NCBI RefSeq assembly: GCF_030253575.1
Contig: NC_080563.1
Location: 36,069,001-36,133,000 of the forward strand
Length of the DNA: 64,000 nucleotides
Reading direction: 5' to 3'
Origin: Rhododendron vialii
Taxonomy: Eukaryota; Streptophyta; Magnoliopsida; Ericales; Ericaceae
Below the pieces are notes generated by a model. That model did no database searches. It was not told the origin of the DNA and worked only from the letters and a program-made list of their open reading frames with translations. The first letter of the stretch is position 1. Each line of letters starts with the position of its first letter. The position numbers were made by a program, and so were the translations under genes. This document shows, in pieces, positions 20,191-62,273 of the stretch.

Positions 20191-23100
20191 CTAAGCCTTC
20201 TCAGCCTCACCCCTGATCCTCCTTGCAAGCTGAACATCTTTGGACATGATGGTGACGCGCTTGGCATGAATAGCACAAAGATTAGTATCTTCAAACAGCC
20301 CAACGAGGTATGCCTCTGCTGCCTCCTGCAATGCCAACACTGCATGGCTCTGGAACCTCAGATCCGCCTACATGCACCCGAAACACAAATTCAGTAATAA
20401 CGTATTCGGTTCGAGCAATTTGGTGGGTAAGAAGGGAAAAGAAGGAAAAGTGTCTAAATGTGCGGTTGCTCAATGCGGCAAAATATGGTTTATAAAGGAG
20501 AGAAATTGACAAAATTGAACTCTAATGTTTTCAATGGTTCGCATTCTCATCGAAACAAGGCGGGATTTGGCAAGGAACAAAACTGACTCTATTCATTGTA
20601 AGACAACGATCTTCTTCATAAACTAACATGATAGAACTGGAGATGGTTTCCACAATTTGCAAACAATGAAACCATAACGAAATATAAAATGAAATCATCT
20701 CACCTTGAAGACCTGGGAAATCTCACGAACAAGCCTCTGGAATGGAAGCTTCCTAATCAGGAGATCGGTAGTCTTCTGGTACTTGCGAATTTCGCTGTAC
20801 ATCATACCACCAATATCACAAATTCAGCATGTAGCAGACCGAACCCAACTCTGGCTTCGCCAGGGTTCGGCTTCGCCAAGACACGTCAATCGTCGGCTTT
20901 TTCTTCACTTTGCATTCGGCAACAGAAAGAACCATGTCAAGCTCGGCCACCTTTGGGAGGTGGTCCCTTAGACCGTTTTTGCTTGGCTTAAAGTCCTATC
21001 AGGCTCGGCTACCCTTTTATGCTCGGCTCCCTTTTATGCTCGGATCCCCTTCAGGTTCGGCTACCCTGCGCGGCCAGTCGGGCTCGGCCACCTGCACACT
21101 CACGTGTCGCCCCGCATGTTGAGGCGGTTACGCCAAAGGATAATCATGAGCGCACGTGGGATGTGCCAGCTCATGCCAAACGGTTACCAGATTCGCCCCG
21201 GTGACGTCATGACGACGTCGCCTGACCCGTGCAAGGCACATGCCTGTGCTTGGAGAGCAAGTCAAGGAAACTCTATAAATATTGAAGGAGAACGCCTCTG
21301 GAGAGGTACGCACTCCCTAACGCGAATACTCACTCAAAACCCTAGTCTCTTTCCTCTCTTCCTACACATACTTATCCTCTCGCCGGAGGGCCTTGCCGGG
21401 CAACCCCCGGCCAGGTCTTAGTCGTGCGCTCACTGTGCAGGCGGCGTGGAGAAGGCTAGGTAACCACTGGACCAGCGGAGGAAGGACTCGAGCCAGAAGA
21501 GATCACGGGCCACACAATTGGTGAACCCGACGTGAAACTCCTCAGCCTCTGATCCAAACGGCTCAAACGCTCTTTCAAATCACCTTCCTCTCAAAAAGAC
21601 GAACGAAAACTCAGCGGCGATGGGCGGAGATCCACCAAACGTTTCAGTTTCCGGAGCCAAAGACACCAGTGGAAACGCGATCCTCCCACCGTTTTCAGAA
21701 AGGCACATGTCCATCTCCCTACCACCAGAATCTGGGCTCTCGCCGGCCGCAGACGACATAACAACGGCCTACATCCGCCTTCTGCAACGGCGAGACGACG
21801 AAAGAGACAACGAACTCGCAGCACTGAGGGCGGAAGTGGCCCAGATGAAGCAACATATGCAGGACGCAACCCCAGCTGCCTCCAGATCCGCCGGAGGCGG
21901 ACGACGAAAGCGAAGAAACTCTCTTCCCCTTCCTCCTCCTCCTCCTCCTCCGCCGCGGGAACACACCAACGAGGCGGGCCATCGCGTCTCCGTCAAAGAC
22001 CGCCTAGGGTTTACGCCAGAAAAGGGAGACGCCCGGGAAATTATCCTCTACAAACGACCTGCAACATCTGGTACACACCATTCGAGGCCCCACCACGAGC
22101 GGACCCACACCAGGGACACCGAATCATTCACGAGCACGTATTCGACTGGTCGCGCGGAGTTCTCTCGCACAACGGCCTCGCGCCGTAGCCGAGACTCCAG
22201 GCGTCACGTCTCTGAACGCCTCGGGGGAATACCACCAGAAAACTTGGATAATGAAAACGACGATCGGCGGAATGGCAAAAGCGTGCGGATCGAAGGGGCG
22301 GAGGATGGGAACAAAACCTATTACGATAGAGAGAAGTCGGTTGACCACCCCCGTAGGGAAACAACAGACCTGCGGGACAAGCTTCGCAGCCGTGTACGCG
22401 AGAAAACCTCAGAAAGAGAGAAGCACCCAAAGAGGCCGCGGACGGAAGAGCTAGGCAAACCACCGCGCCCTGGATTCGAACGGCAACTAAAAGACCTCGG
22501 TATCTCACCCATCACCTCCCACATCATCAACACTATCGCCGAACCAAATTTCCACCTACCAAAATTCACCAAGTTCGACCCAAGCACCTGCGAAGCTTAC
22601 ACTCACCTCATTCACTTTCGCCAAACCATCGAGCTGTGCACTACAAAGGACGAGATTAAATGCAAAGCGTTCCCATCCAGCCTCGGCTCTCTTGGACTCC
22701 AGTGGTTCAACAAATTGCCCGCTGGATCCATACGGAACCTGGCTGACCTTGAACGCGCCTTCAATACCCGCTTTATCACCAGTAATAGAACGGCGAAGGA
22801 GCCTGAATCCTTGACCCAGATGAGGAAACTCCCAAATGAAACGCTCAGGCACTACGCGGAGCGATACTGGCAACTTTTCAATGAAATTCCCGGAATCGAC
22901 GAGTATTGGGCCGCGCGCACCTTCAAAAATGGGTTGGAATCTGGGAGCAAAATACTCGACGAACTGGCTATTCGACCTCCACACGGCATGGGAGAATTGA
23001 TGCGTGTTGTAGAACGATTTTGTGCCCTAGAAGAGTTCTACGCAGACCGGGCCGCTCAGGGGATCCCCAACTCAACAGCCTGTCTTCCAACGACAACCCC

Positions 23101-60911: not shown

Positions 60912-62273
60912 ATGGCTCGTACGAAGCAAACTGCTCGCAAGTCCCACGGGGGAAAGGCACCAAGGAAGCATCTGGCGGTCAAGGTTCTCAATTCTACTCT
61001 CTTGTTTATCACTTTTTACGTGCGTCGTTCTAGTTCTTCTACTCACGGTTTTTAATAAAAGCCGGTACTTATTGTAACGCCATTACATAACAAGATTCTG
61101 TACCTCTCTAATACTGTTATTTACCTTGATTGATAGTCTAATATTGGCCGATATATATATGGCTATATCACCGTTACTGTTACGTTTTTCGATTTTTAAT
61201 ATGCTAGCTGCTTCTGCTCTTGAAGTAGGGAATTGGTTCTCTCCATTCTTGTTTCCTAAACGTGTGTTGTGTTTTATGCTTTTATTTTTTATTTTTGTTG
61301 AAGGTTGCTCAATGTGTTCGCAAATCGGTCCCGACTACTGGGGGAGTGAAGAAGCCCCACCGATTCAAGCCCGGAACTGTTGCTCTACGGTTCGTCCTGC
61401 TAATTTCTGTTCCGACAGTTTTACTCATGAATTCAAATACTAATACTTGTTTCCGTATGCTGAATTTGTGATTTGGTGGTACAGCGAAATTCGCAAGTAC
61501 CAGAAGAGTACCGATCTCCTGATCCGGAAACTGCCATTCCAGAGGCTCATTCGTGAGATTGCTCAGGACTTTAAGGTCAGATTTTTGATCTACTAAAGTT
61601 TGTTATGGTCTATTTGGCGTTATGCCTGTTGTGTCTAATTTTCCATCTTATTTGTATAAGAATGTAAGATTCGGATACGTCTGAGCATAATTTCTTTTTG
61701 GTTCCTTACTGTTTTGATCTCACTATTACGGGAAAGACTACGATATACACCATTTATTTGAGTTAGTATCATATGCACCCCCAAAATGTTATGAATTATA
61801 GTGAAAATATTACGAATCGTATTGCTAAAAAGTTACAAATCGCATTTGAACCCTTTTAAGGGATGTGTATTGTAAACTTTCCCCACCATTACAGTTAATC
61901 CAATCCGTTTGTTCCCTGCCAAATCTCACCATCTTTCAAGTTTCACCGAGAAACAAACACGAGACTTCTATTTTCTCATTTTGTGTCCTTTCTAACCACA
62001 TCTCCCCCAACACAGCAACCAAACTTGAGAAAGTTGCTCAAACCGAACAGGTCATTACCGAGTTTTAGGTACTTATGGAAGTGTATTGAATGTTGGGTGC
62101 AGGCTGATCTGAGGTTCCAGAGCCACGCAGTCTTGGCATTGCAGGAGGCAGCAGAAGCATACCTTGTTGGGCTGTTTGAAGATACTAATCTCTGTGCTAT
62201 TCACGCCAAGCGTGTCACCATCATGCCTAAAGATATTCAGCTCGCAAGGAGGATTAGGAGTGAGAGGGCTTAG
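60912..62273 (+). CDS. Histone H3.3-like variant, gene E
   Basis: Coding exons are 60912-60983, 61304-61389, 61485-61575 and 62103-62273 (GT-AG), giving 139 aa. Exon 1 reads [20 protein letters not shown], so Lys4, 9, 14 and 18 are kept and Thr11 is His. Exon 2 begins [14 protein letters not shown]: three extra residues stand between Lys23 and Arg26, the same insertion site as gene C. Other changes are Y41F, R42K, E59D, V71I, T80A and G132S (RRIRSERA end). There is no leader intron: 5'UTR sequence runs directly into CAG-ATG. It is divergent from gene D, with the two promoters back to back over about 2.5 kb. Confidence 0.9.

Follow-up and report, generated by a model that had tools for sequence, protein, structure and literature searches.

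A functional-looking cluster of H3.3-like histone genes with altered N-terminal tails, probably gametic, in Rhododendron vialii

We analyzed a 64,000-nucleotide stretch of the Rhododendron vialii genome (NCBI RefSeq assembly GCF_030253575.1, contig NC_080563.1, forward-strand positions 36,069,001 to 36,133,000; hereafter the window), in which positions 20191-62273 hold five complete histone H3 genes, here called g1 to g5. Of these, g5 is encoded on the plus strand and the other four on the minus strand, and each has four coding exons, whose splice positions we placed by hand on conserved exon borders. All spliced frames are open and run to 136-139 codons, in agreement with a first-pass annotation, made from the letters of the window, that had described five such genes with a common four-exon layout. 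While these five are intact, the cluster does not end with them, as a sixth intact gene, g6, begins at base 829 beyond the window end and has an open frame of 139 residues. In the flanking stretches L010, L014, and L015, no H3 match was found. The coding exons are the following.

33047..33118 (-), g1 exon 1, codons 1-24 including Met; donor AAG/GT
32632..32711 (-), g1 exon 2, starts V-M-R-K-K-T-V-P; acceptor GAAG, donor CG/GTAAGT
20704..20794 (-), g1 exon 3
20191..20367 (-), g1 exon 4, C-terminal end ...RIRGEAEKA*
37699..37770 (-), g2 exon 1, K9N and S10L
37341..37414 (-), g2 exon 2, followed by GC donor CG/GCAAGT
37142..37232 (-), g2 exon 3, followed by GC donor AAG/GCATGA
36314..36490 (-), g2 exon 4, C-terminal end ...RIRGEAEKV*
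41480..41548 (-), g3 exon 1, one codon missing at T11; K14M
41124..41209 (-), g3 exon 2, K23-K27 stretch longer by three codons
40941..41031 (-), g3 exon 3, followed by GC donor AAG/GCAGGT
40522..40692 (-), g3 exon 4, traces suggestive of conversion with g2
57271..57342 (-), g4 exon 1, Q19H as the sole change
56898..56974 (-), g4 exon 2
56700..56790 (-), g4 exon 3
55940..56110 (-), g4 exon 4
60912..60983 (+), g5 exon 1
61304..61389 (+), g5 exon 2, K23-K27 stretch longer by three codons
61485..61575 (+), g5 exon 3
62103..62273 (+), g5 exon 4
829-900, 1197-1282, 1381-1471, and 1775-1945, counted from the window end (L009), the four exons of g6

GC donors are found in three of the 18 cluster introns (g2 introns 2 and 3, g3 intron 3) versus none of nine in the ordinary H3.3 genes, and so the open frames of g2 and g3 require GC-AG splicing. 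Judging from the sites themselves, this appears plausible, since A at +3 and G at +5 are retained in all three. A search of the PDB with the g4 protein returned 221 distinct sequences, the best 60 of which are all H3 or H3 variants with an H3.3 chain as the top hit, while a search with the g1 protein at a strict threshold of 1e-66 gave no match and is uninformative.

For the parentage of the cluster, a genome-wide protein search with g4 as query (532,647,506 bases in 13 contigs, with counts taken as lower bounds) recovered the six genes of the cluster and, in addition, at least six intronless H3.1 genes and at least three ordinary H3.3 genes, along with three weak, broken fragments and a further weak match pair on contig C1. 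Among the matches listed, there was no other intact gene resembling H3.10, a germline H3 of Arabidopsis, besides the cluster. The three ordinary H3.3 genes encode an identical and canonical protein, tail included, and all three of their introns occupy the same codon positions, in the same phases, as those of the six cluster genes. Moreover, in a gene tree of these nine genes, the split between cluster and ordinary H3.3 genes receives an ultrafast bootstrap value of 100%, as would be expected from the single clade of the first-pass annotation, though H3.1 was left out of the tree and a single clade follows only if the root lies outside the cluster. Within the cluster, support ranges from 47 to 100% (g1 with g2, 100%; g3 with g5 and g6, 87%), and the nearest ordinary gene is H33b (L012).

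Five substitutions are common to all six cluster genes and lacking in ordinary H3.3, namely Q19H, A24V, A29V, E59D, and T80A, although the placement of A24V depends on the alignment, since lengths differ in that stretch of the tail. Here, the first-pass annotation had recognized Q19H, E59D, and T80A, all confirmed by us, and had overlooked the equally shared A24V and A29V. Its description of a near-normal core with H87 and L90 applies to g6 as well as to the five genes of the window. Likewise, the label H3.3-like suits the intron positions, H87, and L90, but not the signature as a whole, as Tyr41 is present in two of the six (g1 and g2), Thr31 in one (g5), and the full T31/Y41/H87/L90 set in none. 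Over the 87 core residues (49-135), the cluster proteins differ from H3.3 by 2 to 8 substitutions, and those of g1 and g2 also by two inserted residues, these two genes sharing two additional codons near the C terminus. We therefore rejected an identity as CENH3, for which a highly divergent core is expected.

When tail (roughly exons 1-2) and core (roughly exons 3-4) were fitted separately with a codon model on the six-gene cluster and a fixed topology, the ratio of nonsynonymous to synonymous change (omega, or dN/dS) was 0.057 for the core (log-likelihood -640.573 versus -689.165 at omega 1, which is rejected) and 0.437 for the tail (-566.160 versus -571.861 at omega 1). With the ordinary H3.3 genes included, the values are 0.210 for the tail and 0.016 for the core. 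The tail is thus under overall but weak constraint, and the diverged tail on a constrained core that the first-pass annotation had described is borne out; a ratio near 1 in both parts, named there beforehand as an outcome that would speak against it, is not what these estimates give. The contrast is sharpest between g1 and g2, whose tails give a dN of 0.162, a dS of 0.162, and a dN/dS of 1.00, with nonsynonymous change at 15.5 of 106 sites in the tail versus 2 of 204 in the core (Fisher P 1.4e-6). For the same pair, the core dS is 0.160 and the distances in introns 1 and 3 are 0.138 and 0.130. Four further pairs show the tail-versus-core difference in nonsynonymous change at P 0.004-0.012, the five tested pairs (of 15) being non-independent.

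Within the tail, Lys4, Lys18, Lys27, and Lys36 are retained in all six genes, whereas Lys9 is lost in g1 and g2, Lys14 in g3, and Lys23 in g6. The retained Lys27 has altered neighbors throughout, with A29V and A24V in six of six and S28T in three (g1, g2, and g4), and the K23-K27 stretch is longer by three codons in g3, g5, and g6 and by one in g1, and shorter by one in g2. All five coding indel events, as counted by eye, are multiples of three, compared with 7 of 24 intron indels (from introns 1 and 3 of g1-g2, where intron 2 was excluded, and introns 1-3 of g3-g5). The altered part of the tail, which lies chiefly between Lys9 and Lys32, has most likely been freed from, or moved off, the usual modification code.

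Upstream of the genes, each cluster promoter contains the 14-mer CCTAACCGCCTCAT, which has exactly six matches in the 533-Mb genome, one per cluster promoter, versus one for the reversed pattern. The core-promoter elements in the window and, further upstream, the modules composed of a CCAAT-type box and ACATCCAARCCGTYAAAT are located as follows.

33741..33754 (-), g1 core-promoter element CCTAACCGCCTCAT, upstream of TATAAA
38216..38229 (-), g2 core-promoter element CCTAACCGCCTCAT
41662..41675 (-), g3 core-promoter element CCTAACCGCCTCAT
58300..58313 (-), g4 core-promoter element CCTAACCGCCTCAT
60780..60793 (+), g5 core-promoter element CCTAACCGCCTCAT
34230..34728 (-), g1 upstream modules, repeated, CCAAT-type box with ACATCCAARCCGTYAAAT at three mismatches or fewer
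38302..38379 (-), g2 upstream module, single
41755..42466 (-), g3 upstream modules, four
58392..59331 (-), g4 upstream modules
60224..60706 (+), g5 upstream modules, three

In all six promoters, an invariant 16-bp block, CCCCTAACCGCCTCAT, of which the 14-mer forms the core, stands directly upstream of CCTATAAA. Among 269 promoter columns (112 of them invariant), in stretches chosen by a pattern with AACCGCC and TATAAA, this block is the longest invariant run and was matched by 6 of 100,000 column shuffles, though the promoters compared, being those of paralogues, have common ancestry. AACCGCC is the reverse complement of GGCGGTT, which fits RRCSGTT, the motif given for the regulator DUO1 (5'-RRCSGTT-3') in the available part of a study that also has Arabidopsis HTR10, the H3.10 gene, as a DUO1 target (PMC6290024). 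The distance from AACCGCC to the ATG is 113-129 bp in g3, g5, and g6 versus 456-968 bp in g1, g2, and g4, and from this shorter spacing we infer that a leader intron was lost in the former three. The CCAAT-type box modules have 14 matches in the window at three mismatches or fewer versus 0.09 expected, and ACATCCAARCCGTYAAAT has 16 versus 0.23 expected. Genome-wide, all five perfect matches of ACATCCAARCCGTYAAAT and 4 of the 22 one-mismatch matches fall in the cluster, with 8 matches for the reversed control. Between cluster promoters and ordinary H3 genes, there are just two short weak matches, both involving g1.

In the 1,500 bp upstream of g1-g5, RRCSGTT occurs 4, 2, 6, 4, and 4 times against an expectation, derived from the window, of about 1.5 per gene, with palindromic sites scored on both strands. 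Over 800 bp, the counts are 1, 1, 2, 3, 0, and 3 for the H3.1 genes, 1, 0, and 0 for the H3.3 genes, and 1, 2, 3, 1, 3, and 1 for g1-g6 (828 bases of upstream sequence being used for g6). Since the H3.1 promoters of this genome are about as rich, we discarded raw RRCSGTT density as proof of DUO1 control. Two further observations concern promoter elements. A 387-bp self-complementary stretch (89.5%) at 33838-34224, which separates the upstream modules of g1 from its core promoter, is probably an inserted foldback element. Degraded modules of the cluster type at 63209-63507 (-) have no H3 gene behind them and are perhaps the remnant of a lost copy. As a possible DUO1-target control, the HAP2 gene was located in the genome.

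As regards age, tail and core synonymous distances between the main branches of g1-g5 are about 0.2-0.5 and intron distances in the cluster reach 0.9, which disfavors the very recent origin that the first-pass annotation had entertained. The lowest synonymous distances are those of g3 with g1 and g2, and for g3 and g2 this can be ascribed to a likely conversion of exon 4, where their dS is 0.08, far below the 0.44 of the tail and the 0.52 of exon 3. Diagnostic sites of g3 favor g1/g2 by 4:2 in exon 4 versus 2:20 in exons 1-3, and gene conversion between g2 and g3 in this exon is thus probable, and would also explain the P121S common to both. In a rough simulation with hand-set branch lengths and no constraint, all six frames stayed free of stops in none of 20,000 runs at the full rate and in 0.3% at half rate. 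When just g1 and g2 were followed from their split onward, both stayed free of stops in 16% of runs, and so the open frames of this pair are by themselves weak evidence. Elsewhere in the genome, three H3 fragments do contain internal stops, one being nearest to H3.3 (L022) and two to H3.1 (L023 and L024) by DNA likeness. Open frames in all six genes together with stops in these fragments favor function, and we rejected plain pseudogenes in view of the six frames, the core omega, and the in-frame indels. In this, our analysis sides with the first-pass annotation, which had preferred function over decay.

Besides the GC donors, that annotation had overlooked a young Ty3/gypsy-type long terminal repeat (LTR) retrotransposon, whose insertion accounts for the 11,837-bp length of g1 intron 2.

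20830..32553 (+), Ty3/gypsy-type LTR retrotransposon inside intron 2 of g1 and antisense to that gene; LTRs at 20830-21516 and 31867-32553

The element is flanked by a 5-bp target duplication (CAGCA), includes a 1977-codon open frame, and has reverse transcriptase, RNase H, and integrase domains within 21536-27469. Its 687-bp LTRs differ by one mismatch, which indicates that it inserted recently, possibly some 0.05-0.1 million years ago at plant substitution rates. Decay of single copies may thus be under way, in g1 with this 11.7-kb element and in g2 with its two GC donors.

Other features of the window include a 14-3-3 coding stretch within 9742-10577, next to a tandem repeat at 9742-10183 whose unit measures some 100-110 bases, a protein kinase domain fragment at 45072-45527 (-), and a retrotransposon gag-like open frame at 562-2058 (-). 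Moreover, long self-complementary stretches at 6980-7857 and 38622-39521 (86-90% over about 0.9 kb) are probably foldback or inverted-repeat elements.

Of the known systems, the closest is Arabidopsis H3.10 (HTR10/MGH3), which the available portions of published accounts describe as germline-specific and replication-independent and name beside H3.3 (PMC3380720), and as a component of sperm chromatin that resists K27 methylation (PMC7410336). S28T is present in H3.10, and substitutions around Lys27 are reported, in the part available, to block its trimethylation (PMC7838089). Correspondingly, S28T is also found in g1, g2, and g4, there are changes directly beside Lys27 in the cluster genes, and the cluster promoters hold a site of the motif of DUO1, the regulator of HTR10. 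E59D and P121S, as well as a change at residue 80, likewise occur in H3.10. In contrast, HTR10 is a single gene in the Arabidopsis list as far as given in PMC3380720, as opposed to the six genes here, and A29V, Q19H, T80A, and the tail-length changes may be peculiar to the cluster. Ordinary H3.3 of the same genome (three genes) is alike in intron positions and phases, H87, L90, and a near-identical core, and differs by the five cluster-wide substitutions. A wider kinship is with the plant H3-like genes, for which the available part of PMC4357034 describes an N-terminal part that is missing or degenerate, departures at positions 31/41/87/90, introns that may be present or absent, and many substitutions of Lys4, Lys9, and Lys27; an altered N terminus and deviation at these four positions characterize the cluster too. 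That class is heterogeneous, however, and the same part of the source mentions no local one-clade cluster with a promoter block of its own. In lily, several H3 variants (gH3, gcH3, leH3, soH3-1, and soH3-2) are reported, in the part available, to occur exclusively in generative nuclei (PMC8215658), a case of several male-gametic H3 variants in one species that we liken by description. Among the papers listed by a literature search, with most subscription papers outside it, no title or abstract opening described such an H3 cluster.

We regard the cluster as real and functional-looking, akin to the plant H3-like histones and probably gametic, a role that the promoter and residue evidence suggests. 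More specifically, and with moderate confidence on the strength of sequence and analogy, we favor a lineage-specific H3 set, most likely of the male germline, that works like Arabidopsis H3.10. Accordingly proposed, one intron-bearing H3.3 gene would have given rise by local duplication to six H3 variants, whose products would fold and enter nucleosomes as H3.3-type histones because the core is strongly conserved and H87 and L90 are kept. Expressed in sperm or the generative cell under a DUO1-type MYB, they would take the place of ordinary H3 in pollen, and their tails would resist or change marking at K27 and K9. In particular, A24V, A29V, S28T (in three copies), and the variable K23-K27 spacer may hinder K27 methylation, whereby parental marks would be erased more easily. 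Several points count against this proposal. Lys27 itself is retained in all six proteins, the choice of promoter stretches by pattern biases the block test, and the CCAAT-box upstream modules resemble ordinary histone promoters. Furthermore, the density of DUO1 motifs is about equal at the H3.1 genes, and so the DUO1 argument hangs on one conserved block in duplicated promoters. With a g1 intron of 11.8 kb and two GC donors in g2, some copies may also be failing.

The likeness of the modules to general histone promoters and the equal density of DUO1-type sites at H3.1 genes would also suit functional H3.3-derived variants at work outside the male germline (for example, in seed, wound response, or meristem), with a tail that drifts as only nucleosome replacement matters. 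The core/tail contrast and preserved frames carry no tissue information, and H3.15, described in the available part of PMC7410336 as an atypical Arabidopsis H3 without Lys27 that is induced in wound regeneration, lends this account some further credit. Still, the cluster-specific promoter block includes a DUO1-type site, the changes flanking Lys27 parallel H3.10, and the genome search listed no other intact H3.10-like gene; we regard a role outside the male germline as rather unlikely. Early decay, in which formerly functional copies are now relaxed and becoming pseudogenes, with g1 and g2 the most advanced, strikes us as improbable. It would fit the tail dN/dS of this pair, their loss of Lys9, the recent retrotransposon in g1, the excess of GC donors over ordinary H3.3, and the survival of the two frames in a part of the unconstrained runs, but the g1-g2 core has just 2 of 204 nonsynonymous changes despite a core dS of 0.16 and distances of 0.14 and 0.13 in introns 1 and 3. 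Moreover, every frame is open, the GC donors keep +3 A and +5 G, and the H3 fragments elsewhere do have stops. That the core likeness comes from repeated overwriting by gene conversion among the copies, rather than from selection, is to our minds very improbable. Exon 4 of g2 and g3 is indeed unusually alike, yet core synonymous distances are otherwise broadly as in the tail, E59D and T80A are kept in all six genes, and exon 4 has a dS of at least 0.48 from ordinary H3.3, saturated for some pairs.

Within the favored male-germline set, the copy-specific losses of Lys9 (g1 and g2), Lys14 (g3), and Lys23 (g6), along with the varying K23-K27 spacing, lead us to propose, tentatively and as a possibility short of an even chance, that one species has several non-equivalent sperm H3 tails, with the tail rather than the core diversifying, perhaps under positive or otherwise changed selection. 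Few known protein stretches are as conserved as H3 tails, whose length hardly varies. A tail that evolves at up to the neutral rate beside a strongly selected core amounts to a natural experiment that shows which of its residues a nucleosome can dispense with. If the cluster genes are sperm-specific, a plant would be able to expand an H3.10-like histone into a family of several, non-equivalent members, and these would offer a direct test of whether changes adjacent to Lys27 reset Polycomb memory in sperm.

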